64,000 bases of DNA from Verrucomicrobiota bacterium (GTDB lineage Bacteria > Verrucomicrobiota > Verrucomicrobiia > Opitutales > Seribacteraceae). The stretch is taken from NCBI GenBank assembly GCA_028343845.1, contig JAOLZO010000011.1, forward strand, positions 1 through 64,000, written 5' to 3'. A program made the position numbers and the translations under genes. This document shows positions 18,631 through 33,291 of the stretch, one piece after another. The notes beneath the pieces were generated by a model. It searched no databases. It saw only the letters and a program-made list of their open reading frames with translations, and had not been told where the DNA came from. How positions within the stretch are numbered: position 1 is the stretch's first letter; each line of letters begins with the position of its first letter.

Positions 18631-19746
18631 ATGAACAATCTTCAAAAATTGGAACTTCACGAGTTTCACCTCAGGAATTGCGCAAAGTTTACCCCGTTTG
18701 CGGGGTGGAATATGCCAGTGGCGTTTGGGCGCTCCATTGAAGAACATATGCAAACACGGGAGAAAGCCTCCCTTTTTGACGTCAGTCATATGGGGGAAAT
18801 CAAGGTGCAAGGAAAGGACGCGGGCCTTTTTTTAGACTATGTCCTTACCAATGAAGTCAAGTCGATCAATGTCGGCAAGGCTTTGTATTCTCCGATTTGT
18901 ACGGATGCGGGTGGCGTTCTTGATGATCTGATTGTTTACAAGAGAAGCGAGAAGAGCTTTTTCCTGTGCGTGAATGCATCGAACGTGGCGAGTGACTTTG
19001 AGCATTTTCTTGAACAAAAGAAGAGGGTCGGGGCCGATTGCGAAATCTCCAACGTCTCTGCAAGTTGGGGCCAGATTGCGTTACAGGGTCCGGCTAGCGC
19101 TCAAGTTCTTTTTGCTGCTAGCGGGATTGAATTTAAAGACCTTCCCAAGATGTCCTTTCGTGAAGTCGATGCGTTTGGTGGTCTTTCCCTTGTTGCAAGG
19201 TCTGGCTACACGGGCGAAGACGGGTTTGAGATTTATTGCCCGGCGAGAAGCATTTTGGATTGGGCCAATTCCTTTGAGGAGCAGCGTTTGTCTGGCATGG
19301 TTCGCTGGGCTGGGCTTGCCTCACGGGATAGCTTGAGGCTGGAGGCGGGCTTTCCTTTATATGGCCATGAATTGTCTTTGGACATATCCCCCCTGCAAGC
19401 TGGAATTGGTTGGGCTGTAAAATGGCATAAAGACGATTTTCTGGGTAAAAGCGCTCTGCTTGTAGAAAAAGAACGGGGGTTGGCGGGCAAGGTGGTTTTC
19501 TATGAGGTGGACGACCGCAGAATTCCAAGGCAGGGAGACAAGGTTTTTTCTGGTGAAGTAGAGATCGGGAGAGTCCTTTCCGGAGGCTACTCACCTATGA
19601 TCGAATCACCAATTGGCAGCGCGTGGCTTGACATTTCGGTTGCCGGAAACAGCGAGGCCGAGCTATTTGCGGAAGTCCGGGGTAATCAAGTCGGGTTGCA
19701 ACAATCGATTCCCGTGCTAAGAAAGTTGAAAAGAAGCAACGCCTAG
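18631..19746 (+). CDS. gcvT: Aminomethyltransferase (glycine cleavage T protein)
   Basis: This 371-residue protein matches GcvT in length and motifs: FTPFAGWNMPV near the start, VLDDLIVYK with the catalytic aspartate, and RDSLRLEAGFPLYGHEL in the folate-binding region. It transfers the aminomethyl group from the H protein to tetrahydrofolate. gcvH and gcvP are not adjacent. The 163-base upstream gap shows no recognisable glycine riboswitch. Its stop overlaps the convergent Asp23-like gene through a shared CTAG. Confidence 0.93.
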   Translation: MNNLQKLELHEFHLRNCAKFTPFAGWNMPVAFGRSIEEHMQTREKASLFDVSHMGEIKVQGKDAGLFLDYVLTNEVKSINVGKALYSPICTDAGGVLDDLIVYKRSEKSFFLCVNASNVASDFEHFLEQKKRVGADCEISNVSASWGQIALQGPASAQVLFAASGIEFKDLPKMSFREVDAFGGLSLVARSGYTGEDGFEIYCPARSILDWANSFEEQRLSGMVRWAGLASRDSLRLEAGFPLYGHELSLDISPLQAGIGWAVKWHKDDFLGKSALLVEKERGLAGKVVFYEVDDRRIPRQGDKVFSGEVEIGRVLSGGYSPMIESPIGSAWLDISVAGNSEAELFAEVRGNQVGLQQSIPVLRKLKRSNA

Positions 19747-20180
19747 GACGCGGTCTGAAAACCTTTGATTATGATGTCAACTCCTCCAAAGTTGGAGAAG
19801 TTGAGGTTTTTAACCATGATCTCCTCAAGGCGTTCCCGGATCGAAGTGCGTGTCTCTTTGACATTGCAGTCTGGGTTGACCTTTAAATGAATATCCAGCC
19901 TTAACTCCCTTCCTTTTAGCCTGATGCGGGTTGAGGGTGAGTTTACCTCCGGAAAGACCTCGCATGTTTTTCTAACCAATTCATGTAAGGCGTGAGGGGT
20001 TATTTTAACCAGTCCTTCCTCATCTGCAAACACTGGGATTAATTCTTTTTTGAAGCTTCTTGCGACGACCAATACGATGATTAGGAAAACAAGGAGACAA
20101 AAGGCGTAGAGGTAGAGCGGTTCCTCGACCGCTTCCAGGAAAGTGGAATGATAAATTTGCTTAATTTTGGAAAGAGACAT
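19743..20180 (-). CDS. Membrane-anchored Asp23-like protein
   Basis: This 145-residue protein has one membrane helix near 24-40 (YAFCLLVFLIIVLVV), then a soluble part resembling the Asp23 fold (ITPHALHELVRKTCEVFPEV; LRLDIHLKVNPDCNV; IRERLEEIM). Its arrangement recalls AmaP, the membrane anchor of Asp23 in Firmicutes, and it directly follows an Asp23-type gene. The assignment is from pattern and context; sequence similarity is modest. It converges on gcvT. Confidence 0.65.
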   Translation of the reverse strand: MSLSKIKQIYHSTFLEAVEEPLYLYAFCLLVFLIIVLVVARSFKKELIPVFADEEGLVKITPHALHELVRKTCEVFPEVNSPSTRIRLKGRELRLDIHLKVNPDCNVKETRTSIRERLEEIMVKNLNFSNFGGVDIIIKGFQTAS

Positions 20181-20198
20181 GGCTCTGCCGTTGAACGC

Positions 20199-20654
20199 TT
20201 AACTTGTAGGCTCGTCTTCCCAGTTTTCCTCGTCCTTGTGAATCGAGTCCATCTTTATGTCATCGATTACCACATCGATGTTCTTGGCGTGATTTCCGGT
20301 CATTGCAAGTATCTGATCACGAATAGATTCTTGAATCGATAATCCGGTTTTAGCCAAGTCCACACCAAATTGAAGCACGACTCTCACTTCGATGTCGTAA
20401 CCACCTTCTCCACCCTCGCTTTCGGCTACTTTGACGCCTCTTTCGGATTCTTTTTTCGAGAAAAAGTCGGTTAATCCTTCCACGACTCCTCCTCCACCCA
20501 CGTTTACTACGCCACTGATTGACTGAGTGGCCAAACGGACTATCCCAGCAATGACACTGTGGTTTATCCGAATAGTACCAAGTTCGCTAGACTCTTCGGT
20601 AAGGGTCGGGATCGGTTCCGGATCCGGGAATTCTTCTTTTTTCTTTCTACTCAT
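20199..20654 (-). CDS. Asp23/Gls24 family envelope stress response protein
   Basis: This 151-residue soluble protein has the Asp23 core: [18 protein letters not shown], a Gly-rich VGGGGVVEG loop, a beta strand [12 protein letters not shown] and the helix [15 protein letters not shown], ending in an acidic tail. The ATG overlaps the accC stop by 8 bases, so it is translated with the acetyl-CoA carboxylase genes. In Firmicutes, Asp23 forms membrane-associated assemblies through AmaP; the neighbouring membrane Asp23-like gene could play that part here. The role in this lineage is unknown. Confidence 0.85.
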
Positions 20655-22038
20655 TGGGTTTGTCCTTGCTTGCTTGATCGAGAATGTCTTTGGGGACTCT
20701 GTCGAGAAAATCTTCGATGTATGAAGTCGTGGCTTCTCCTTGCCTAAAAGCTGGGTCCAACAGCACTGCCTTCAGAAATTCCACATTGGTGTCGATCCCG
20801 CGGATAAGATATTCGCTTAAGGCTCTGTACATTCGGTCCAGGGCAATCTTACGGGTCCTTCCATATGTGATGACCTTGCTGATCATGCTGTCGTAGTACG
20901 GCGAAACCGTGTAGCCCCCGTAAACATGGGAGTCCACCCGTACGCCATGTCCACCTGGGGCGGAATACAATCCAATGTCTCCGGGGGAGGGTATAAACCC
21001 CTTGGCCGGGTTTTCAGCGCATATTCTGCACTCGATCGCATGCTTGCTTAATGAAATGTCCTTCTGGGCAAATCCAAGCTTATTCCCCGATGCGATCTGA
21101 ATTTGCTCCTTGATCAAGTCTATGCCCGTGGCTTCCTCAGTGACTGCATGTTCCACCTGAATTCGGGTGTTCATCTCAATGAAGTAGAAATTCCCCTTTG
21201 CATCGACCAAGAACTCGATGGTGCCTGCATTCACGTAATCCGCAGCTTCCGTCGCCTTTATGGCCGCTTTACCCATTCTGTTTCTGAGGTTTTTATCAAG
21301 GAAGGGCGAGGGCGATTCCTCGATGACCTTTTGGTGCCTTCTTTGCACGGAGCAATCGCGTTCACCTAAGTGGACGATGTTTCCATGTATGTCCGCAAGA
21401 ACTTGGAATTCTATGTGTCGCGGATCCTCCAAATATTTTTCCACGTAGAGGGAACCGTCTCCAAAGGCTTTTTGGGCTTCCAAGCGAGCGGCTTGAAATT
21501 CCTTGACGAAAGTCACTGCATTGCGGGCAATGCGCATTCCCCTACCGCCTCCACCGGAAACCGCTTTGATGATCACAGGGAAACCGATTTTCTGAGCAAC
21601 CTTAGTTGCATCATGTTCGTTTTCAATCGGGCCGTCGCTTCCTGGAATGATAGGCACTCCAGCCTTGGAGACTGTTTCGCGGGCCTGGGCCTTGTTCCCC
21701 ATCTTATGGATGGTTTCTGACTTGGGACCGATGAAGGTGATGTTGCAAGACTCGCACTGTTCGGCAAATTCTGCGTTTTCGGACAAAAAGCCATAGCCTG
21801 GATGAATGGCGTCTACGTCACCAATTTCTGCGGCGCTAAGGATTCTGTCCGCTCGCAGGTAACTTTCCGAACCGGGGGCAGGACCAATGCAAATGGCCTC
21901 GTCAGCTAGTTGGACATGAAGTGATTGTACGTCAGCTTCGGAATAAACGGCCAAGGTTCGAATTCCCAACTCACGACAGGCACGGACAATTCGCAAGGCA
22001 ATTTCACCCCGGTTGGCAATTAGGATCTTTCGGATCAT
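20647..22038 (-). CDS. accC: Acetyl-CoA carboxylase biotin carboxylase subunit
   Basis: This 463-residue ATP-grasp enzyme carboxylates biotin on BCCP at the first step of fatty-acid synthesis. The N-terminus [19 protein letters not shown], the ATP-binding glycine loop [10 protein letters not shown] and the catalytic segment [14 protein letters not shown] are all present at expected places. Length matches the family. It follows accB by 8 bases and overlaps the Asp23 gene by 8, forming an accB-accC-asp23 unit. Confidence 0.97.
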
Positions 22039-22046
22039 GCGGGAGT

Positions 22047-22505
22047 CTAGCTTTTACGGACTTTGAATAGGGTTTGTCCGTACTCAATGCTGTTGGCATC
22101 CTCTACAAGAATTTCGACGATCTCCCCGGCAACGTCGCTTTGAATTTCATTCATCACTTTCATTGCCTCGACGATGCACAGGACATCACCTTTTTTAACT
22201 ACGTCTCCAACCTCCACAAAAGCGGCATCGTCTGGAGACGGCTTTCTGTAAAAAGTTCCAACCATGGGCGAGTCGAAAGGATGAAGTCCATCATCTTGCG
22301 GTGCTGGAGACGAAGGCGCGACGGGTTGAACTTGGGAGGTGATCTGTTGCTGAGGAACCTCCGACTTTATTACATTACCCGATGGCAATGAGGTTGCTCC
22401 CGGACGCGCCAATCTTAACTTCAGATCTTGTATCTCGATTTCAAGTTCGGTCAGATCGGATTTTTGCATCAAGGAAATTATTCCCTTTAGTTCACTTAAG
22501 TCCAA
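22047..22505 (-). CDS. accB: Acetyl-CoA carboxylase biotin carboxyl carrier protein
   Basis: This 152-residue protein has an N-terminal helical segment, a Pro/Ala/Gln linker (about 50-72) and a C-terminal biotinyl domain with EAMKVMNE, where K116 is the biotinylated lysine. The start is most likely the TTG at 22505: a TGA lies in frame just upstream, and a full AGGAGG sits 8 bases before the TTG. It leads the accB-accC pair. The biotin ligase gene birA is also in this window. Confidence 0.95.
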
Positions 22506-22621: not shown

Positions 22622-25291
22622 TTATTTAAATGGATTAACTATGAATTCCGTCTTCGGGTTTTTAACATCGCCGGAAATTCTGATCTCCGCGATTTTTGAG
22701 AGCGGATCCGCAAGATTGATAATCGTGGAAATGAGGGGTATTTTCAAGTTTCCGACGAGTTTGAGCTTTGCGGTGATGTCAATCTCATTGGAAATCAAGT
22801 TCATTTGCCCGGAAGCCTCCAACTTGGAAATTGGTCCAGTAAGCAGTATGTTATCGGAGAATATTTTTTCGTATTCGATTCGAAACGGAATCTCAAGTCT
22901 CTCGAAGGAGAAAGAGCCGGAGGGGATTGGTAATTTGGACATGTTGAGCCTTTGGGATATTTTCCCCAGTAGGTTGACCTGGCTCAAGCTTTCCTCAACC
23001 AAGCGCAGATGTCCCGTTCCCTCAAATTGCAAGCGGTTGTTGTGTGGGCCCTTTGCTTGCAGTGAAAGATCTACCGTGCCCGATGTGTTTTCGAGCGTTT
23101 TGACGGTTTTCTTTATCTGGTCCCTGTCCTCCGCCTCCAAAATGGACAAGTTTGAGATAATGGAAGAAATTGCATATCGGTCACCCTTCTGCAGGTGAAA
23201 TTTGAAGCTTAGCGAATCATTTCCCGGGGTGTTTTCCGATTGGAAATCCAAGGATGCCTTTCCTGCAGCTATTCCAATTGAAGGGAAACTGCCAATTGTA
23301 GCCGAATTATGATAGTTTAATTCTCCATGGATTTGGCTTACGGGAACGCCCCACAGGGATGCGTTGGTGTCTGTCGAGATTTTTATTTTGTAGGAAGACT
23401 TGTTCCCATCCGCAGAACCATAGGTTTCATTAAAGTAAATGCTACCCCCTGCTTCGCATGAGACTACTGAGGAGTTGAAATCTGATAGGATCTCCTCGAC
23501 CTCCTGCCCAAAGACCTTCTTCCCGTCGTCGAGTGGGAAATCTCCTTTGAATAGAAACCTTAGAGGGGTGTTTGTGAAGCTTGGGTTTCGGGGTATGCTC
23601 AAATTCCCGTTGAGGCTTCCTTTGTCATGGATTGCGGATGCTTCGATTTGCGTGCTATTCCCATCACCGAAAACCTTCAGGGTTGATTGCGTGAGTGGTA
23701 GTCCTCTGAAGACCACGGCTTTGCTTTGGACGATTCCTTCGGTGATCGTGCTTGCTCCGGAGTCTTGCCAATTGCCGGATATGGAAAAATCCCCATGTGG
23801 GATTGCTTCGCTAAATGCAAACTCAAGCCAAATTCGCTTCCACCAGTTTCCCAACCAGTTGTTGATGTCGGTGGGCAGACACTCGCCTTTCAATAGGAAT
23901 CTGAAGTTATGAGGGTTCCAGGATTGAGTATAGGTGCCCTTGACTTCACTACTTCCCAATTTGCCCCAAGCCGAATCTACGAAAATGGAATAATCGGGAG
24001 CGATCCGTCCCGAAAGATCAAAGGCTCCCTCAGGTGCTTCCATCACTGAAAGCCGATCGGTTGTTACTTTGAATGACATGGGCGCGGTTACCCTGCTTTC
24101 CATCTCGTTTCTGAAAAGGTAGGCATGCGCTTCATCCCCGTCCAGTACCCTTAGGTTGCCTTTTTTGGTGTCACAGTACAGATCGAAGTTCTTTGGCGTG
24201 ATCCGAGCCTCTCCATGAAGGGAGATGAAGGATGTGTACTTATAGCTCAAGGCTATGCGTGTACGGTTGGAATCAGAAAAGAGGATTCCTTCCGCGGGGT
24301 ATTCGGTGCTCTTGGAAATGACGTTGAAGCTAGGGAGGTGACCTTGGATTCTCCCGGCAAAACCAATTCTGCGAACACTGAGGTTGGTTCCTCCCAAGTC
24401 ATCCTTAAGGTCATTGAGTTTCTTGAATCTGATTGAGGGGTTTGCCAGGGATACGTCCTCGAAGGTAAGTTGAACCGACTTTGCTTTGAGCGAGAAATCG
24501 TCGATGCGCGATTTAATGGAAACGGAATGGTTTTCGCCTTCTTCGGTAGATATTTTCAAGAAAGTGTTCAATCCGTTTACTTGATTCGAGTGATTACCCG
24601 TTTCCTTGTTAGGTAAGGGTGCTTGGGAAATGCATAACATCCCGCTTGGGGTGGCATTTGCGAATGCCTGAAGGTGAAGGGGGGGCACGCCTTTGGTCCA
24701 TGAGACGATTTGATCGAGGTTGGCAAGTAAGCGATCTACCGGATTTTCAGCGCTCGTCTGCCCTTTCTTTGCGAACAAAGACTGAAGATAATGGAAGTCA
24801 ATCACGCCTCTTATGCTTATGATTTTTTGTTCAAGGGATAGGGATGAGGAAATGAGGTGCTGGCTTTTTCCATTCTTTTTTATCTGGGTGTTCGTGACAG
24901 ATAAAATGGGTCGATCCCTATCAGGCGAATAAAAGTGGATTTCTTCCGCTCGAACCCGCTCAAGATCTCCAAGCGCAAACCAAGCAAGGCGAAGGAGCGA
25001 ACATTTCAAGGAAAGATCTTTGACTTCAATGGCCGGGCGACCTTCTTTTCTAACAGTCAATCGCTCTACCTTAAGCTGATTGGGGAGAGAAAAATCAATG
25101 TTTGAATAGTGGAACGCAATACCGTTGGTTTCATATTTTTCGGACAGGTTTTTAGCAAAGGCTTCCGGAATGGCGATTGTCGTTTTGAGAAGACACAACA
25201 GAATGATTTGAAAAACCAAGAGTGCGAAGAGTGCTTTGTTTGGCTTGTCGCTTCCCTTGTACAGGGACATGTAGCTTTTGTAAGGTTTCAC
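22622..25291 (-). CDS. AsmA-like / DUF3971-type large envelope protein
   Basis: This 889-residue protein has one N-terminal membrane helix (about 24-40), then a long region of repeating beta-strand character with conserved-looking segments such as FHYSNIDFSLPNQLKVERL and SGTVDLSLQAKG. The C-terminus (GQMNLISNEIDITAKLKL; GDVKNPKTEF) resembles the AsmA C-terminal region. This layout suggests a periplasmic beta-groove protein of the AsmA/TamB type, a group that includes lipid-bridge proteins. The likely start is a GTG at 25291 with GAAAGG upstream; an ATG seven codons later is an alternative. It is the last gene after the DUF4340 gene, 16 bases away. Confidence 0.7.
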   Translation of the reverse strand: MKPYKSYMSLYKGSDKPNKALFALLVFQIILLCLLKTTIAIPEAFAKNLSEKYETNGIAFHYSNIDFSLPNQLKVERLTVRKEGRPAIEVKDLSLKCSLLRLAWFALGDLERVRAEEIHFYSPDRDRPILSVTNTQIKKNGKSQHLISSSLSLEQKIISIRGVIDFHYLQSLFAKKGQTSAENPVDRLLANLDQIVSWTKGVPPLHLQAFANATPSGMLCISQAPLPNKETGNHSNQVNGLNTFLKISTEEGENHSVSIKSRIDDFSLKAKSVQLTFEDVSLANPSIRFKKLNDLKDDLGGTNLSVRRIGFAGRIQGHLPSFNVISKSTEYPAEGILFSDSNRTRIALSYKYTSFISLHGEARITPKNFDLYCDTKKGNLRVLDGDEAHAYLFRNEMESRVTAPMSFKVTTDRLSVMEAPEGAFDLSGRIAPDYSIFVDSAWGKLGSSEVKGTYTQSWNPHNFRFLLKGECLPTDINNWLGNWWKRIWLEFAFSEAIPHGDFSISGNWQDSGASTITEGIVQSKAVVFRGLPLTQSTLKVFGDGNSTQIEASAIHDKGSLNGNLSIPRNPSFTNTPLRFLFKGDFPLDDGKKVFGQEVEEILSDFNSSVVSCEAGGSIYFNETYGSADGNKSSYKIKISTDTNASLWGVPVSQIHGELNYHNSATIGSFPSIGIAAGKASLDFQSENTPGNDSLSFKFHLQKGDRYAISSIISNLSILEAEDRDQIKKTVKTLENTSGTVDLSLQAKGPHNNRLQFEGTGHLRLVEESLSQVNLLGKISQRLNMSKLPIPSGSFSFERLEIPFRIEYEKIFSDNILLTGPISKLEASGQMNLISNEIDITAKLKLVGNLKIPLISTIINLADPLSKIAEIRISGDVKNPKTEFIVNPFK

Positions 25292-25307
25292 CTCGTTGAC
25301 CTTTCCC

Positions 25308-27092
25308 TCAAGGAGAGGGGGGAGGTTTTTGCTCTAGGTAGACGGTCAGGTACTCAATGATGCTGATTGGCAGGTTGAAGGTAGTGTCTTCCTTCTCGGA
25401 CCCGCAGTACCAGGTGGTTGCCCCTTTCTTTTCGCTGAGGTAAAAGTCGTATGCCGGCTCATCTTCCGAGGAACTGAGGAAGGTCAGCCTGTATTTCCAT
25501 GGAACCCAATCTCCTTCCACCCATGCTCCGTCCTTTTTGAATTTGTTGGAGATGTATTTCTCCACCTTAAACAAATTGATGAAGTTATTGTCAGGATCAG
25601 TGGAGTTGCGGTCACTCGAATAGATGGCGTCCTTGGCGTCACCGTCTATCATGGATATGTCATAGGCCGAAATCGGCGGTTCGGAGGGGAGCAATGATTT
25701 TGTTCTGAAAGGCAAGCTCTCGGTCGTTAGGATTCCAATCAGGTTGAGGTCCACCAAGCAAACCAATGCCTGTTCAGTGTTGTATATCTTCGAAAAGGAG
25801 GCGTCTTCGATTGATTCGCTGACGAGAATGGTCTGCTTGGTACTATCTGCTTTCAGGACGCTGAGTATGTATTTGGGCGGGGAAAACCCATTTTCTACCA
25901 GGTCGTTCTGCTCGGGATTGATTGCCAGGTATTCATTAACCCGCATTTGGTTAAGCGATCGAACGAACGTCTCGATCGATTCCTTTTCGGATTTGACCTG
26001 AGTTTTCGCGGTGGAGTTTCCTTCGATTACGAACCACTCCTGGCTTGATTTTATTAGTTTCAGGAAGTCATCATCTCGTTGAATTTCAATCTCCTTAAGG
26101 TTTTCCAATGAAAGATCAAAGACAGTTCTTTCTCTAAGTTGAGTGCTCAAGTCAGTCAGTTTCGTTACGAAATCTTCGTTGACGGTAAAAATAGTCGATG
26201 AAGCGGATGACTTCGCGGTTCTGGCAGATTTGTCGTTGCCGGTCGGAGGACTGAGGAAAATATGCTCTTCTTTACCCATGCTTTTGAGGTAAATCTTAAC
26301 CTCCCAGGAATCCTTTGCCTCTGTTGCGTTCTCTTCCTTCGGCGAATGCGCGAACCCTTTTATTTTTTCCGAAAGTAAACTGTTTAGGAAAAACAAGACT
26401 TTCTCTTTATTGGCCTGCGCTTCGGTAAAAGGCTTTACGAAGTTCCAATCCGAATTGACTTTTTCCAACCTTGTTTCACTGGTTTGGTTTCCGTCCCTTC
26501 GAAAGGTTACTGAGAACTCGTCAATGGAATAAAGCGGTTTGTTAACGAAAGTGGGCACTCCCCAGTGCACCGGATCTGCATTTGTAATATCCAGGATTTC
26601 TTTGGATACCGCCCAAATGCCCGTGTTTTTGTCCGATGTCCGCTCGATTTTCGCGTAAACAGATTCTTCGTCTCTGGTTTCTTTGCCGATCGTTAAACGC
26701 AGCGTGGAGTTCAATGCCTTGATTTCCACTATTGTCGAATTTTCATCCACACCATAATCGTCTGCGATTTCTCCTCGTTTTTCGATTTCCTCAACCGTGT
26801 ACAATTCCTTGAAGCTCAGATGGGCAAACTTTGTCGTGAAATTCGATAGAACGAGTTCTTCGGCTTCCCAGTAAAAAGGTTCCTTCAAAACCCAATCCTG
26901 TTCATCTTTTACTATTCTTACCTGCCCATTGTTTTTTGGCTCGGATATCGAAATGGAATGCAGGTTGGAAAGTAATTCGCTTATCTCGAAGACTATGTCT
27001 TTCTTTTGATCTTCCTTCTTGTTAACGATAACGAAAATGATGACGGCAATCACCAGGTTTGCTAGGAGGAGTAGTATCTTTGACTTTTTCAT
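25308..27092 (-). CDS. DUF4340 domain protein of a GldG-type ABC operon
   Basis: This 594-residue protein has an N-terminal membrane helix (about 7-22) followed by a long soluble region with DUF4340-like repeats, each with a strand pattern near LRLTIGKETRDEESVYA and FNLPISIIEYL. DUF4340 genes are commonly placed after GldG-like genes in ABC-2 operons, exactly as here, three bases after the gldG-like stop. The protein should face the periplasm. No catalytic motif is evident and no biochemical role is established that I can name. Confidence 0.85.
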   Translation of the reverse strand: MKKSKILLLLANLVIAVIIFVIVNKKEDQKKDIVFEISELLSNLHSISISEPKNNGQVRIVKDEQDWVLKEPFYWEAEELVLSNFTTKFAHLSFKELYTVEEIEKRGEIADDYGVDENSTIVEIKALNSTLRLTIGKETRDEESVYAKIERTSDKNTGIWAVSKEILDITNADPVHWGVPTFVNKPLYSIDEFSVTFRRDGNQTSETRLEKVNSDWNFVKPFTEAQANKEKVLFFLNSLLSEKIKGFAHSPKEENATEAKDSWEVKIYLKSMGKEEHIFLSPPTGNDKSARTAKSSASSTIFTVNEDFVTKLTDLSTQLRERTVFDLSLENLKEIEIQRDDDFLKLIKSSQEWFVIEGNSTAKTQVKSEKESIETFVRSLNQMRVNEYLAINPEQNDLVENGFSPPKYILSVLKADSTKQTILVSESIEDASFSKIYNTEQALVCLVDLNLIGILTTESLPFRTKSLLPSEPPISAYDISMIDGDAKDAIYSSDRNSTDPDNNFINLFKVEKYISNKFKKDGAWVEGDWVPWKYRLTFLSSSEDEPAYDFYLSEKKGATTWYCGSEKEDTTFNLPISIIEYLTVYLEQKPPPSP

Positions 27093-27095
27093 CGA

Positions 27096-28706
27096 TTATA
27101 ATTCTTTTCTTAACCACCCAACGAATATACCGAGCAAGGCTATGAGTCCCGGGATGACGGATAGGGAATAAAGAAGTTTTTCGAAGTTCTCACTACTCAT
27201 GGATACATGATAACTGTCGAGCGGTTTGGGCGGTATCTCAAGCATTTCATATGAGTTTTTTATCCAGTAAATCAAATTTTGGGCGAGGAATTGATTGCCG
27301 GTATTCGACCTGAGTCTCTTGTTGGAAAGAATTTTCGAACATCCAAGAACAACCAGCTTGCCTTTGGGGGAAAATTCATTGGGCGAATCACCTTCCTCGG
27401 CATAAGAAGAAAGTGATGCAATCGGAAGGGGACCTTCTACGTCGAGCAGAGGGTTCTTTTCCGGAGGGGTCTTTCGGTTTGCCCAACCGGAAACAGCCCA
27501 TGAAGTGCTGGAAGAATAAACCAACGAAACGGGATTAAGCCCCTTGGGATGTCCCGGGTCGACTTCTACCGGGCGACACCTGTCCGTCTGAATCGAGTAT
27601 CCCTGCTCGGCAAGTACCTTAACCGAGGGGTGCAAGTTTTCCCTGGAATAGGTTCTGAGTGAGTAGTCACCTGTAAATATGTCGAAGTTTTCTCGATTGG
27701 GATCGTAAACAAGCATGTCATGACATCTCAAACCCCATTCCTTGAACAAGGGGCGCAATCCAAATGCGGGACGATCAATGACGGCGAGGCTTTCCATCGG
27801 ATCCAAGGCCACAAGGAGGTTTCCGTCATTTTGATTTAGAAAGTTACGCATCAGGGAAACTTCCTCATCTTGGAAAGTAGCTTTTGGTCCTGCGATTATG
27901 ACTAGTTTTGCATCTTTGGGAATGCTTTCAGAGACGCTCAAGTCAATGGTTGAGACCTGAAGGTTCTTGTCTTCGAGAAGCCTTCTTAATTCGGAATACC
28001 CCTTTTCGGCATTTACGTCAGCGGGACTGCTCTCGCCATGCCCACGCGTGAAGTAAGCAACCCGTTTCAATTGAGGCTTCCCCGAAACTTCCAGAATAGC
28101 TCGAGTAATTACCTCCTCGCCTCTGAAGACTTTGGGCTCAAGCATTCCATTGGGTCCCTCGACCCACTCTCCGTAAAGGCCCGATTCCCACAATGATTCA
28201 CGGGCAAGGGAGTCCTTGGAGCGGAAAGATTCATTCGGGTCGTAGGGGTTGACTCCATCAGCATCCTCGTGCCTGAAAACGATTTTCTTGTCTCCTCTGG
28301 GCGATGCAACCATGATCAAGTTCGCTTCCGTGAGATTGTAGAGGTTGATTACGTCGGAAGACATGGTTGCCGAATTTACGTCAACCCTATGAACGCTTAT
28401 TTTCCTCGCGGATGCAGAGTTCTCGAAGCTTTCCAAAAGAAGATCGAGGTCATGCAGGAGCTTTTGAACGACTTTTGGCAAGGCGTTGTTGTCTTGGATC
28501 GTAATGATGACGTCGACCGGACTTTCCATTTGATTGAGCAAGGCCATAGTTTCTCTGGAAAGCGTGTGCTTCGAGTCGGGCGTGATGTCTATTTGACCGT
28601 CTATTCTGGATGCCAGGAAATTAAGTCCAATGGCAAATGAAAACAGCAGCAATACCAATAGCCAACTGTCGAACTTACGATTCCTCTTCGCCTGCTTGAA
28701 GTCCAT
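27096..28706 (-). CDS. GldG-like ABC transporter auxiliary protein
   Basis: This 536-residue protein has an N-terminal membrane helix (about 15-33), a large soluble domain with GldG-type features (LNFLASRIDGQIDITPDSKHTLS; AYFTRGHGESSP; LVIIAGPKATFQDEE) and a C-terminal membrane helix near 510-530. It matches the auxiliary component called gliding-motility-associated GldG in Bacteroidota, which occurs in many non-gliding bacteria. The ATG overlaps the permease stop by one base. The substrate of the system is unknown. Confidence 0.88.
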   Translation of the reverse strand: MDFKQAKRNRKFDSWLLVLLLFSFAIGLNFLASRIDGQIDITPDSKHTLSRETMALLNQMESPVDVIITIQDNNALPKVVQKLLHDLDLLLESFENSASARKISVHRVDVNSATMSSDVINLYNLTEANLIMVASPRGDKKIVFRHEDADGVNPYDPNESFRSKDSLARESLWESGLYGEWVEGPNGMLEPKVFRGEEVITRAILEVSGKPQLKRVAYFTRGHGESSPADVNAEKGYSELRRLLEDKNLQVSTIDLSVSESIPKDAKLVIIAGPKATFQDEEVSLMRNFLNQNDGNLLVALDPMESLAVIDRPAFGLRPLFKEWGLRCHDMLVYDPNRENFDIFTGDYSLRTYSRENLHPSVKVLAEQGYSIQTDRCRPVEVDPGHPKGLNPVSLVYSSSTSWAVSGWANRKTPPEKNPLLDVEGPLPIASLSSYAEEGDSPNEFSPKGKLVVLGCSKILSNKRLRSNTGNQFLAQNLIYWIKNSYEMLEIPPKPLDSYHVSMSSENFEKLLYSLSVIPGLIALLGIFVGWLRKEL

Positions 28707-29485
28707 TAGTGATTGAGCCTTTCTACTTGCAAAGTTGCCAGGCTCAGAAAGAGGAAGGAGAGGATCAACTGGTGGAAAATAGTACCGACGTCAATCAGCC
28801 CTACGGAGAAATGCTGAAGTTTGTGAAGTCCATGCCCAAAGGATCCAAGGCATGCGTTCCAAAAATCCGAAAAATTATCAATGGAGTTCAAGGAGGAAGA
28901 TTCTCCAAAGGAGAATGCCATGATGGAAAGGTAGAGGGTGAGAAGGGTGAAGGAAAGCATTCCTGCAACCATTTGGTTTTTTGTTATCGAACTGGCAAAA
29001 ATTCCGACTGACGTGAAGCTAGCACCGAAAATCATCAGGAAGGTCCAAGCACCGATCCATTGTTCGTATTGAGTGAAACCCAGGGTTTCCCCTTGCTCGG
29101 GAAATAAAAAGTGCAAAAGTGCCGGAAAGCAAAAGGCAAACCCACAGATTATGAGGAAAAACAGATAGCTTGCGCTCCATTTCCCAAGAACCAGAGAGAT
29201 GCTTCCGACTGGAGCGGACATAAGGGTTTCGAGGGTGCCGAGTCTTCTCTCTTCTGCAAAGGACCGCATTGTGAGGAAGGGTATTAGACCAGGTGAACCG
29301 AAGACGAGTCCTACGACCAAGGAGGAAAGGGGAGGGAGAATCCAATCGGTGGCGGTAAAGCTCTCGATGAAGAACCTAAATCCGATCGCAAGCAATGAAA
29401 GAAAGTAAAAACTCGCCACATAGGTAGCGGGAGAGATGAACAATCCGAAGAGTTCAGCCCTTAGTATGACCCAGTATTCACGCAT
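28706..29485 (-). CDS. ABC-2 type permease (GldF-like)
   Basis: This 259-residue membrane protein has about six membrane segments and the ABC-2 pattern near PFLTMRSFAEERRLGTLETLMSAP (positions about 70-93), where the EERRLGTLE loop is characteristic. It follows its ATPase by 12 bases. With the ATPase, the GldG-like and DUF4340 proteins it should form one inner-membrane complex. Calling it GldF-like reflects family and order, not a role in motility. Confidence 0.88.
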   Translation of the reverse strand: MREYWVILRAELFGLFISPATYVASFYFLSLLAIGFRFFIESFTATDWILPPLSSLVVGLVFGSPGLIPFLTMRSFAEERRLGTLETLMSAPVGSISLVLGKWSASYLFFLIICGFAFCFPALLHFLFPEQGETLGFTQYEQWIGAWTFLMIFGASFTSVGIFASSITKNQMVAGMLSFTLLTLYLSIMAFSFGESSSLNSIDNFSDFWNACLGSFGHGLHKLQHFSVGLIDVGTIFHQLILSFLFLSLATLQVERLNH

Positions 29486-29497
29486 CGTCCGAAATCA

Positions 29498-30532
29498 TTA
29501 GCTTTGTTCGTTGGCTACCTCGGCCCGCTTCTTCTTTCTGCCCAGGAAATCCTGATCTTCCCAATTTTTCTTGGTGGCCCGAAGGAAAATCGTCTCCAAG
29601 TCAGGTCGAGTGATCTGAAATTCGGAAACCTTGAATTGCTCAACTCCGAGGAGGCGCTTGAGTATGTTCTCCGCCACTTCGCTTCCCTTTCCCGTGGAAA
29701 AGGTGAACCTTCTTTTGCCCGTAACCTCAACCGGGTCGTCCTGGATCAGTTCGCAGGTTTCGTCGATCCTTCTGATTTCCCGTTGCAGGTCGATCCTGTT
29801 TCCGTGCGCCACGATCTCAAAGACGGTGTTGTGGATGAATTCTTTTTGCAGTTCCAATAACGTTCCTTCAGTTACGATTTGGCCGTGGCTCAAGATAATC
29901 ATTCTGTCGCAACAAGCTTCCACCTCGGAAAGAATGTGACTGGACAGAAGGAAGGATACTTCACCTCTTAATCTTTCCATCATTTTGCGGGTGATGGCGG
30001 ATTGCCTGGGATCCAGTCCGATGGTCGGTTCGTCCAGAATGACCAAGCGTGGTTCTGCAAGCAACGCGTCTGCAATTCCCACGCGCTGTCGAAACCCTTT
30101 GGAGAGATTGCCGATCTTTCTTTCGGAGACTTTCCGTTCCAAATCGCAAATATCCAAAACGATTCTGGTTCTTTCCCGTTTTCTGCTTCCCTCCAATCCT
30201 TTGAGCCTCGCTCGGAAGTTGAGGTATTCTATGACTCGCAGGTCTTCTGGAAGCGGGTTGTTCTCAGCCAGATAACCGATATGCCTTCTTACTTCGCCCT
30301 CTTCCTCTGCCAAGTCGACGCCACATACCTTTGCTTCTCCGGAGTCTGCAGGAATCAGACCGGATAAAATTCTCAGGGTCGTGCTTTTCCCAGCTCCGTT
30401 TGGGCCTAGGAAACCTACGATTTCACCCTTTCCTATTGAGAAACTGATTCCTTTGAGAGCCTGGATTGCCCCATATCTTTTTCTCAGGTTGAGAACTTCT
30501 ACAATGGGTAGCGGTTTCGTTTCAGAACTCAT
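29498..30532 (-). CDS. ABC transporter ATP-binding protein (GldA-like)
   Basis: This 344-residue ABC ATPase has Walker A GPNGAGKST (about 43-51), a signature in the degenerate form LSKGFRQRVGIA, and Walker B LVILDEPTIGLDP. The C-terminal extension of about 110 residues ends in a basic segment (GRKKKRAEV). It powers the adjacent ABC-2 permease. Its start overlaps the end of coaX by 11 bases, so this envelope module is transcribed with cofactor genes. Confidence 0.92.
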   Translation of the reverse strand: MSSETKPLPIVEVLNLRKRYGAIQALKGISFSIGKGEIVGFLGPNGAGKSTTLRILSGLIPADSGEAKVCGVDLAEEEGEVRRHIGYLAENNPLPEDLRVIEYLNFRARLKGLEGSRKRERTRIVLDICDLERKVSERKIGNLSKGFRQRVGIADALLAEPRLVILDEPTIGLDPRQSAITRKMMERLRGEVSFLLSSHILSEVEACCDRMIILSHGQIVTEGTLLELQKEFIHNTVFEIVAHGNRIDLQREIRRIDETCELIQDDPVEVTGKRRFTFSTGKGSEVAENILKRLLGVEQFKVSEFQITRPDLETIFLRATKKNWEDQDFLGRKKKRAEVANEQS

Positions 30533-31307
30533 TAGGATTTCTAGGTGTGGTATTTTCCAAATAGGCTAGTCCGATTCCTTCCAACGTGAGGAGTGGCCTG
30601 TGTTCGGAGTCGGGCAATTCTAGATGAAAGGATGCTCCTCCTGCGAGGATTACTTTTGGTTTGTTCTCACTGGTTTTCAAGAGCTCATCGCTCAACTCGT
30701 TTAGGATCCCCTTTACCATGGGGCCAAAGCCAAGATGAATTCCCAAAAGCATGGCATCCGTTGTTTTTTTTCCGATTGGGTTCGAGGGCATTTTGTCACC
30801 GATGCGTACTTTTGGCAAAAGGGCTGTGTTTTGATGGAGGAAATCGAGGAAACCTTGCGGCCCCGGGGCGATAACTCCTCCCATATAGCCTTCCTCCTTA
30901 CCCACGACGTCGAAGGTCGTGGCTGTCCCAACGTCAATTACGATGGCTGGCAGTTCACTTGTTCTGTGTGTGGCAAATGCATTTGCGATCCTATCCTGAC
31001 CTATTTCATCGGGAGAAGGATAACTGATGGGGAAATTTCCATAGGAATCGTTTGTCACATTGAACGATTTCGTTCCTGACCGGGAGCTCCATTCTTTAAG
31101 CGCGCTTTCGGCAAGGGTGGAGACGGAGCAGTAGGCAAGAGGTTCAGGGCAAGATACGATTGGACCGAGGAGGTCATCCGGGTTTTTGGCGAAGGATGAG
31201 GTGCTGACAAATCTTTCCTGAGTGATCCTGCCTTGCTCGAATAGTCCAATACGACAAGTGGAGTTCCCCAAATCTAGGGAGAAGACCCTGCTTTGCTCAT
31301 TATTCAT
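30522..31307 (-). CDS. coaX: Type III pantothenate kinase
   Basis: The start is the ATG at 31307, which overlaps the birA stop as ATGA; an upstream reading adds about 55 residues of basic, non-conserved sequence antisense in character. The resulting 261-residue protein shows the ASKHA phosphate motifs FSLDLGNSTCRIGLF and VIDVGTATTFDVV, and GGVIAPGPQG. It phosphorylates pantothenate, the first step of coenzyme A synthesis. birA-coaX is a common bacterial gene pair. Confidence 0.92.
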   Translation of the reverse strand: MNNEQSRVFSLDLGNSTCRIGLFEQGRITQERFVSTSSFAKNPDDLLGPIVSCPEPLAYCSVSTLAESALKEWSSRSGTKSFNVTNDSYGNFPISYPSPDEIGQDRIANAFATHRTSELPAIVIDVGTATTFDVVGKEEGYMGGVIAPGPQGFLDFLHQNTALLPKVRIGDKMPSNPIGKKTTDAMLLGIHLGFGPMVKGILNELSDELLKTSENKPKVILAGGASFHLELPDSEHRPLLTLEGIGLAYLENTTPRNPNEF

Positions 31308-32383
31308 CCTCGGAGAGTGACTTCTCCCGCTTGTATGGCGCGAAACCTTCCGTTCCTTAGTTTTACCTTCAGGGCCCCCGAAGCATCTATTCCTTTGGCT
31401 GTGCCGATGATTGTGTCCTTCCCTGATGATATTCCTACTTTTTGATCGGCCAGCGCATCGAATTCCTCCCATCTCTCCAAAAGATTTTTTTCGGCATTGC
31501 CTTTCAGGCAGTCACGGTAGGCGCCAAGGGAAGTTTTGATGATCTTTGCCGCGATCTCATGTATCCGGAAGCTTTCTCCTTTTAGCCCTTCTATCGAAGT
31601 TGCGATTTTAGAGAGGGACTTTGGGAATCTCGATTTTGGGTAGTTGACGTTTAGGCCGAATCCAAAGACCAAAGACCGAACCCGTTCGCAATCGATTGAA
31701 GCCTCGGTAAGCATTCCTCCCAACTTCTTCCCTTTGTGAACCAAGTCATTCGGCCATTTAACGGAGATATCGTTGATCCCGGTCAGAGATCTGAGGAGAT
31801 TTCCTATTTGTATGCCCTGCCAAAGTGTAAAAGAGCGAAGCTTGATTAAATCGACGTCCGGTCTCAAGCCGATGGACAAGTAGAGGTTTCCTCCCTTCGG
31901 GCTGTGCCAATTCCTTCCCAATCGACCCCTGCCTTCGTTCTGGGTGTTTGCGAGAACGGCAAAGGGTGCTTTTTCTCCATTTGCCAAGAGTCTTTCCGTA
32001 ACCGAATTGGTGCTGTCGACTTCATCAAAGACGAAGACTTTGCAACTTTTACGGCATTCCTTAATCCAGGCTTCAAGGAGTGGTTGGTTTAGCAGGTCTG
32101 GCTCTGCCGAGAGCCGGTAGCCACGGTTCTGAGAAGCATCGATTGACAAGCCGGCTTGCCTGAGTTTGTTGATCCTGGACCAAATCCCGACCCGTGACAT
32201 TTTCAGCTTTTGGGCAAGCATGCTGCCGGAGACATAGTATGGGGAAGCCGCAAGCAGCATGCGCAGAACGTAGCTGCTCGGGTTTTCGGAAGCTTTTGCC
32301 TTGGCTTTCCCCTTGGGTGGGGTGACGCTTTTTCTTTTACCTGTTGGATATTTTGACACGGTCAGAAAAGTATCTATTCCCAA
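31304..32383 (-). CDS. birA: Biotin--[acetyl-CoA-carboxylase] ligase with HTH domain
   Basis: This 359-residue protein has a basic Lys/Ala-rich leader, a winged-helix region (MLAQKLKMSRVGIWSRINKL) and the biotin ligase domain with GRGRLGRNWHSP and SVKWPNDLV. It activates biotin and attaches it to AccB K116. The HTH region suggests it could also act as a biotin repressor, as in group II BirA. The start is unclear: TTG at 32383, overlapping nadC by 10 bases, or GTG at 32359; neither has a good ribosome site. Confidence 0.92.
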   Translation of the reverse strand: MGIDTFLTVSKYPTGKRKSVTPPKGKAKAKASENPSSYVLRMLLAASPYYVSGSMLAQKLKMSRVGIWSRINKLRQAGLSIDASQNRGYRLSAEPDLLNQPLLEAWIKECRKSCKVFVFDEVDSTNSVTERLLANGEKAPFAVLANTQNEGRGRLGRNWHSPKGGNLYLSIGLRPDVDLIKLRSFTLWQGIQIGNLLRSLTGINDISVKWPNDLVHKGKKLGGMLTEASIDCERVRSLVFGFGLNVNYPKSRFPKSLSKIATSIEGLKGESFRIHEIAAKIIKTSLGAYRDCLKGNAEKNLLERWEEFDALADQKVGISSGKDTIIGTAKGIDASGALKVKLRNGRFRAIQAGEVTLRG

Positions 32384-33291
32384 TCCAAGCCAATATCAAG
32401 CCAACGACTTGCATGGATGGGCGCGCCACTGGAGATGAAGTGAGGTTTTGCCTGAGCATAGGCGGAAATGTTTTCTTCGTTAATTCCCCCGCTCGCTTCC
32501 AAAACGGCTCTGTTATCGTTTATGGCAGAGGCCCTATCGATTTCATCCGGAGAAAAATTGTCTAGCAAAACGGCATCCGCCCCACCTTCCAGGGCCGCTT
32601 CAAACTGTTCGAGTCCGTCCACCTCGATTTCGAGTAGAACACCGGGCTGACTGTCCTTCAGGGCCCTGACAAATTCAGTCAATGCAACTGGTGATGCGAT
32701 TGAGGCAGCGGCCAAGTGGTTATCCTTTACTAACATCCGGTCATACAGCCCCATACGATGATTATAACCTCCGCCACAAGCCGTGGCGTATTTCTCAAGG
32801 GACCTCATTCCCGGAGTCGTCTTGCGGGTGTCCAGTAGTCCTACGCCAAAAGGTTCAAGGATCTTTACGAAGCGATTTGCAACGGTAGCGATACCAGAGA
32901 GCTTTTGCAGGAAATTCAAAACGGTCCGTTCGATTAAGAGGATTTCAGGTTGAGGACCTTCCATCACGCCAATCGATTCTCCGGGTTGCAGAGGCGTTCC
33001 GTCCTCAACTTGCCGATCGAGCTTAACTTGAGGAACCCCGAAGGCATTTGCAACCAAGGGAATGAGACCGATTCCGCAAAGTATCATTGGTTCTCGCGCC
33101 ACGAGGCTTGCTTTGCCTAAGCCGGTGATCTTGCAAGAATCCGTAGTGACATCACCAAGACAGGAGTCAGAGTTTTCCCTTCCTCTCTCTTCGATTAAGC
33201 ACAGATGAAGAAGCGACTTGACTGATTCACGGTCGATCTCATCCCAAGCCAATCGACTTTTAAAGCGCTTGAAGGAGGAGGGAGCGGTCAC
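32374..33291 (-). CDS. nadC: Nicotinate-nucleotide pyrophosphorylase (carboxylating)
   Basis: This 305-residue enzyme converts quinolinate and PRPP to nicotinate mononucleotide in NAD synthesis. The motif LLDTRKTTPGMR, the following ACGGGYNHRMGLYDRMLVKDNH region (positions about 170-190) and the barrel end LLDNFSPDEI and SSGAPIH are diagnostic. It lies 5 bases after the purA-like gene and overlaps birA. No other NAD gene is nearby. Confidence 0.95.
   Translation of the reverse strand: MTAPSSFKRFKSRLAWDEIDRESVKSLLHLCLIEERGRENSDSCLGDVTTDSCKITGLGKASLVAREPMILCGIGLIPLVANAFGVPQVKLDRQVEDGTPLQPGESIGVMEGPQPEILLIERTVLNFLQKLSGIATVANRFVKILEPFGVGLLDTRKTTPGMRSLEKYATACGGGYNHRMGLYDRMLVKDNHLAAASIASPVALTEFVRALKDSQPGVLLEIEVDGLEQFEAALEGGADAVLLDNFSPDEIDRASAINDNRAVLEASGGINEENISAYAQAKPHFISSGAPIHASRWLDIGLDWE

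Follow-up and report, generated by a model that had tools for sequence, protein, structure and literature searches.

We analyzed a 64,000-nucleotide stretch of a Verrucomicrobiota genome (assembly GCA_028343845.1, contig JAOLZO010000011.1, positions 1 to 64,000; referred to here as the window) and found five co-directional minus-strand genes, spanning 30532-22622, that form an operon present in most of the Verrucomicrobiota lineages examined. The genes encode, in order, a GldA-like ATP-binding cassette (ABC) ATPase, a GldF-like ABC-2 permease, a GldG-like protein, a DUF4340 protein and an AsmA-like protein of 889 amino acids (aa). We tentatively propose that the module may be a five-component lipid transporter of the envelope, in which an ABC-2 transporter loads an AsmA-like bridge. 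Such a combination, in which an AsmA-like bridge has an apparently dedicated ABC transporter of its own, seems to be undescribed. An earlier note on this DNA had singled out the module as a candidate for an undescribed system, and we found no description of the five genes in the literature accessible to search; a search for DUF4340 together with GldG also returned nothing, and DUF4340 by itself appeared in two papers.

The five-gene module

The genome from which the window derives is verrucomicrobial, of Opitutales type; it measures 2.5 Mb, is split into 107 contigs and is 64% complete. In the open reading frame (ORF) listing of the window, the first gene of the module (29498-30532) encodes the 344-aa ATPase, identified by Pfam ABC_tran, NCBIfam GldA and its motifs. 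It is followed by the genes of the 259-aa permease (28706-29485; ABC2_membrane_2/3 and NCBIfam GldF), the 536-aa GldG-like protein (27096-28706; ABC_transp_aux, DUF7088 and NCBIfam GldG) and the 594-aa DUF4340 protein (25308-27092; Pfam DUF4340 and an AlphaFold2 model). The last gene (22622-25291), with a GTG start, encodes the AsmA-like protein, which was assigned from a match to the YhdP C-terminus, an hhalign comparison with AsmA and a structural model. The intergenic gaps from the ATPase to the AsmA-like gene are 12, -1, 3 and 16 bases, confirming the tight packing, with gaps of at most 16 bases, that the earlier note had described. Promoter- and terminator-like sites were no more frequent than in shuffled sequence, and the DUF4340-AsmA gap contained none of the promoter-like sites of this strand.

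Conservation of the gene order

We surveyed the gene order, as the earlier note had proposed, across Verrucomicrobiota only. The locus survey used GldF as bait, hence its 80 named genome loci were not selected for AsmA. All five genes were labelled in 62 of the 67 loci of the window's order that hold GldG, DUF4340 and AsmA, and the gap from DUF4340 to AsmA had a median of 15 bases (60 bases or less in 60 of the 67). The five genes also stood in order in 14 of 20 loci from other classes; in most of the remaining ones a label was displaced by overlapping ORFs, and in at least one, L194, the AsmA gene was missing at that place.

For adjacency, we searched one set of 288 genomes of the phylum with both the AsmA and the DUF4340 profile. 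These genomes were at least 85% complete, the window's own excepted, and adjacency was counted only in genomes with listed matches for both profiles. The best AsmA match lay directly downstream of the best DUF4340 match, and co-oriented with it, in 40/43 genomes of the window's order and in 42/58 genomes of other classes, with some of the non-adjacent cases sitting at contig ends. The earlier note would have been refuted by an AsmA-like gene with its own promoter and no conserved neighborhood with the ABC genes; this was not observed, since the neighborhood of the gene is conserved. The recurrence of the order over many families and several classes argues that it is not due to chance. The two profiles also co-occurred outside the window's order, where at about E 1e-20 or better both were found in 68 genomes, AsmA alone in 15, DUF4340 alone in 30 and neither in 132 (Fisher p 3e-22, a value that ignores shared ancestry and is not readable as a probability).

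The genes around the module were much less constant. A BirA gene upstream accompanied the module in 30 of 31 loci of near relatives versus 9 of 36 in the rest of the order, and an AccB gene downstream did so in 26 of 31 versus 7 of 36. The module was intact where these flanks were lost, for example in loci L067, L073, L078, L082 and L083. Since the flanks drop out while the five genes persist, the unit is the five genes and not the flanks.

Relatives also carry a second, paralogous system, in which a GldA-like ATPase is accompanied by a GldF-GldG protein (about 1000 aa) and by a protein that is a distant DUF4340 or resembles one (L091, 6622-12385; L093, 3573-9576; L094, 4093-10002; L095, 3299-8999). 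No AsmA gene was found beside it in these four loci, and it serves as an internal control. The union of the ABC part and the AsmA gene is thus strong, not obligatory. The strongly reduced genomes G041, G090 and G111 take the module apart, and the latter two (0.9 Mb each) are without GldG and DUF4340 and retain an AsmA-like protein.

The AsmA-like protein

The one Pfam match of the 889-aa protein was to the C-terminus of YhdP (E 3e-8), at 32.5 bits versus a curated cut-off of 46. PF05170 did not match the protein, and no AsmA, YhdP or TamB model of Pfam exceeded its curated cut-off. The YhdP model was matched individually by 29 of the 48 members of the AsmA-like family in the window's order. 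A profile of 48 homologues aligned with residues 291-581 of Escherichia coli AsmA (hhalign E 7.5e-7, score 60; best of 30 shuffles 19.7, reversed AsmA 17.6) and with the YhdP C-terminus (E 0.001, score 38.9; shuffles 22.0 or less). The same profile gave no clear rise above controls with TamB, YdbH or unrelated proteins and retrieved no PDB sequence; E. coli TamB had no profile match to the family, and at E 0.001 the genome of the window yielded no TamB domain (PF04357). By profile comparison, the 889-aa protein is a remote homologue of AsmA, AsmA-like by homology and not by Pfam cut-off.

A membrane helix was predicted at about residues 16-35. In the AlphaFold2 model (predicted local distance difference test score, pLDDT, 84.2) this N-terminal helix is followed by about 49 beta strands that form one long run, a predicted beta groove. 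The structure prediction and the homology to AsmA both agree with the AsmA-type groove that the earlier note had suggested. The nearest solved folds in Foldseek were the beta belt of apolipoprotein B, which is lipid-carrying, and LptD; the template modeling (TM) scores were low, as expected of long curved sheets. TamB entries were absent among the structural matches listed, which excludes nothing. Hydropathy alternated along the strands, with an alignment-averaged value of 2.22 versus 1.19 in shuffles (sd 0.14), a value that none of 2000 reached, suggesting that one face of the predicted sheet is apolar. This signal is supporting only, since other beta folds would show the same.

A WW motif (consensus PxxxNxWLxxWWxxxW, residues 473-487) falls on two short helices predicted for the central part of the protein; it characterizes the AsmA-like proteins of the window's order and is absent from those of other classes. 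We dropped the idea that the protein of the module is the sole AsmA-like protein, because several genomes hold additional long ones.

The ABC transporter part

The ATPase matched Pfam ABC_tran (E 2.3e-29), and its Walker A motif, LSKGFRQ signature and Walker B motif are all intact. The best NCBIfam models for the first three proteins were GldA_ABC_ATP, GldF and GldG, which are equivalog models of the gliding transporter (TIGR03522, TIGR03518, TIGR03521). The scores were 258.2 bits versus an equivalog cut-off of 402.6 for the ATPase, 86.6 versus 288.5 for the permease and 42.9 versus 389.85 for the GldG-like protein. Judged by these scores, the ABC part is a homologue of GldAFG and not an equivalog, and we do not class it as a gliding transporter.

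The permease has six hydrophobic segments. In the GldG-like protein, an ABC_transp_aux/GIFT-type domain (ABC_transp_aux E 4.8e-19) lies between one helix at the N-terminus and another at the C-terminus, and in the PDB the profile of its family matched eukaryotic IFT52 at the GIFT domain (5fms, E 9e-10). DUF4340 (PF14238) matched two stretches of the 594-aa protein at 78 bits versus a gathering cut-off of 25, and the AlphaFold2 model (pLDDT 87.9) shows an N-terminal membrane helix followed by repeated alpha/beta domains. No PDB sequence was found with the DUF4340 and GldF family profiles. Sliding clamps, the best Foldseek matches of the DUF4340 model, were dropped as fold relatives at a TM-score of about 0.1, and YycH, the best match of VIA-align (Z 5.4 over 105 residues), fell below the trusted level. 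Neither MlaD (MCE) nor MlaE was matched in Pfam by any of the five proteins.

Genes flanking the module

Upstream, at 30522-33291 on the minus strand, lie genes for CoaX, a type III pantothenate kinase (Pfam Pan_kinase), a BirA-like biotin ligase and a NadC-like protein, the latter two named from sequence. Downstream, on the same strand, are AccB (22047-22505), AccC (20647-22038), Asp23 (20199-20654; Pfam) and an AmaP-like protein (19743-20180), of which all except Asp23 were named from sequence. A gap of 116 bases separates the AsmA-like gene from AccB in the window (median 114), and this wide gap also marks the module off from its downstream flank. In the family of the window, the module sits inside a long housekeeping run from NadC to AmaP. 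The AccB-AccC-Asp23-AmaP-like cluster (19743-22505) turns up repeatedly within the order, in several of its families; Asp23 and AmaP are better known from Gram-positive bacteria.

Proposed function and alternatives

We propose that the GldA-like ATPase and the GldF-like permease would form an inner-membrane ABC-2 transporter, in a physical complex with the other three proteins. The GldG-like protein, with its periplasmic GIFT-like domain and two helices, and the DUF4340 protein, with its periplasmic repeats and single helix, would be the periplasmic part of the transporter. The AsmA-like protein, anchored by its one N-terminal helix, would span the way to the outer membrane as a groove-shaped bridge. 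ATP hydrolysis would then lift an inner-membrane lipid into the groove, and transport would be outward, with a glycerophospholipid heading for the outer membrane as the most likely cargo. The specific form of this proposal is that GldAFG-DUF4340 serves Verrucomicrobiota as a dedicated, ATP-driven phospholipid extraction machine at the inner membrane, loading an AsmA-like bridge that leads to the outer membrane; we regard it as less likely than not.

A phospholipid is favored because AsmA-like proteins of E. coli and Pseudomonas have been implicated in phospholipid transport (PMC12800296, PMC10900882). The other envelope systems of the 27 genomes tested point in the same direction. LptF/G genes are present in all 27, separate from the module, so lipopolysaccharide has its own route through Lpt. 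MlaD-type proteins are likewise encoded in all 27, away from the module, and retrograde transport is therefore probably already served. TamB-like proteins were not found in 20 of the 27, suggesting that another bridge is needed. In part of the order the module is also flanked by fatty-acid and cofactor genes (accBC, birA, coaX). A glycan, which the earlier note had considered as cargo next to a lipid, received no support in this analysis. Transposon-directed insertion site sequencing (TraDIS) of Verrucomicrobium spinosum found a DUF4340 protein, not necessarily the paralogue of the module, to be essential (PMC12283558), consistent with an envelope function that cells cannot do without; as a caution, other orders of that class have a detached AsmA homologue.

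Several observations weigh against a five-component transporter. The operon contains no outer-membrane component, and no AsmA-like protein elsewhere is known to require an ABC transporter. The AsmA and DUF4340 genes were adjacent in none of 9 genomes from other orders of the window's class, where, as in the paralogous system, the ABC/GldG/DUF4340 part occurs without an adjacent AsmA gene. The presence of the two profiles is unequal (15 genomes with AsmA only and 30 with DUF4340 only), and several genomes encode further long AsmA-family proteins. The reduced genome G047 (1.3 Mb) retains GldG, DUF4340 and AsmA on different contigs, with AsmA detached, and G040 shows the same split pattern with less certainty. 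G041 (0.9 Mb) retains GldG, and its DUF4340 and module AsmA were undetected. In addition, there is the precedent of Veillonella, in which mlaEFD, tolC and tamB share one operon and the Mla and TamB systems are antagonistic (PMC10665443).

The Veillonella case suggests an alternative in which the ABC transporter and the AsmA-like bridge serve the same lipid pool in opposite directions, or independently, and the operon only sets dosage. That AsmA can stand apart from the ABC genes, as seen in other orders of the window's class and in one reduced genome, would agree with this. However, the MlaD-type proteins in 27/27 genomes indicate that a retrograde system is probably already there, and the ABC genes of the module are of the ABC-2 (GldF) type and not of the MlaE type; we consider the alternative unlikely. 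About equally unlikely is that the AsmA-like groove carries another lipid-linked or hydrophobic cargo, such as an outer-membrane lipoprotein, a glycolipid, a hopanoid or a polyprenyl-linked molecule. In Flavobacterium johnsoniae, the stability of GldJ and GldK needs functional GldA and that of GldK needs GldF (PMC9127263). Nevertheless, that the module is broadly conserved in the phylum and kept by reduced genomes speaks for a general part of the envelope and not for a special product, and in the loci read no special-lipid biosynthesis genes travel with the module.

Another alternative is that GldA-F-G-DUF4340 is a mechanotransmitter or regulator of the assembly of outer-membrane or secreted proteins, modeled on FtsEX and MacB, which act across the inner membrane, with the AsmA-like protein as an assembly factor. 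The large periplasmic parts of GldG and DUF4340 would suit such a role, as would the effect of the homologous GldAFG on the stability of other Gld proteins and not on a known substrate (PMC9127263). This explanation appears less likely still, considering that GldF belongs to the ABC-2 family and was unmatched to the FtsX/MacB permease family, and that the model of the AsmA-like protein resembles a groove, one face of which is apolar. Finally, the module could be a neighborhood of convenience, in which unrelated housekeeping envelope genes share one operon, as its position within the NadC-to-AmaP run might suggest. We find this very improbable, as the module holds together even in families and classes without those flanks, and the paralogous ABC/DUF4340 locus has no adjacent AsmA gene in the loci read; an explanation by a housekeeping operon was rejected because the five genes outlast the flanks.

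The proposed lipid transporter touches on how phospholipids get into AsmA-like bridges at the inner membrane, on what, if anything, loads them there, and on whether this costs energy. A 2024 study of the AsmA-like proteins of Pseudomonas noted that a dedicated extraction machinery, if one is needed, had yet to be identified, and considered LptBFG and LolCDE unlikely to fill that role (PMC10900882). The genetic link between an ABC transporter and an AsmA-like protein, found in many families and in several classes of a single phylum, makes the module a good candidate for the machine, so far missing, that loads lipid bridges, presumably with phospholipids. If true, it would be an extraction machine of a kind not known for E. 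coli or Pseudomonas. The proposal also puts forward an initial function for DUF4340 and for those relatives of GldAFG that occur outside gliding bacteria, and named genes are now available for depletion, tagging and purification in culturable, transformable Verrucomicrobiota.

Comparison with known systems

The AsmA, YhdP, TamB and YdbH bridges of E. coli and Pseudomonas share with the AsmA-like protein an N-terminal inner-membrane helix and a long predicted periplasmic beta groove, and the protein is detectably homologous to AsmA and to the YhdP C-terminus. Its gene differs from theirs in being joined to an ABC-2 transporter, with no TamA-like partner in the operon; we know of no dedicated transporter for the AsmA-like proteins of E. 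coli. The GldA-GldF-GldG transporter of gliding Bacteroidota belongs to the same three protein families according to the best NCBIfam models, although all three scores are far below the equivalog cut-offs and the module adds DUF4340 and the AsmA-like protein. The ATPase signature reads LSKGFRQ in the window and LSKGYRQR in F. johnsoniae GldA (PMC9127263). The mlaEFD-tolC-tamB operon of Veillonella and other Negativicutes likewise combines an ABC transporter and an AsmA-like protein (PMC10665443). Unlike the module, its ABC part is of the Mla/MCE type, thought to be retrograde, and it is without GldG or DUF4340. The permease family of Lpt (LptB2FGC-A-DE) also differs from that of the module, and the LptF/G genes are separate in these genomes; as an ABC transporter that feeds a beta groove across the periplasm, Lpt provides a working analogy only.

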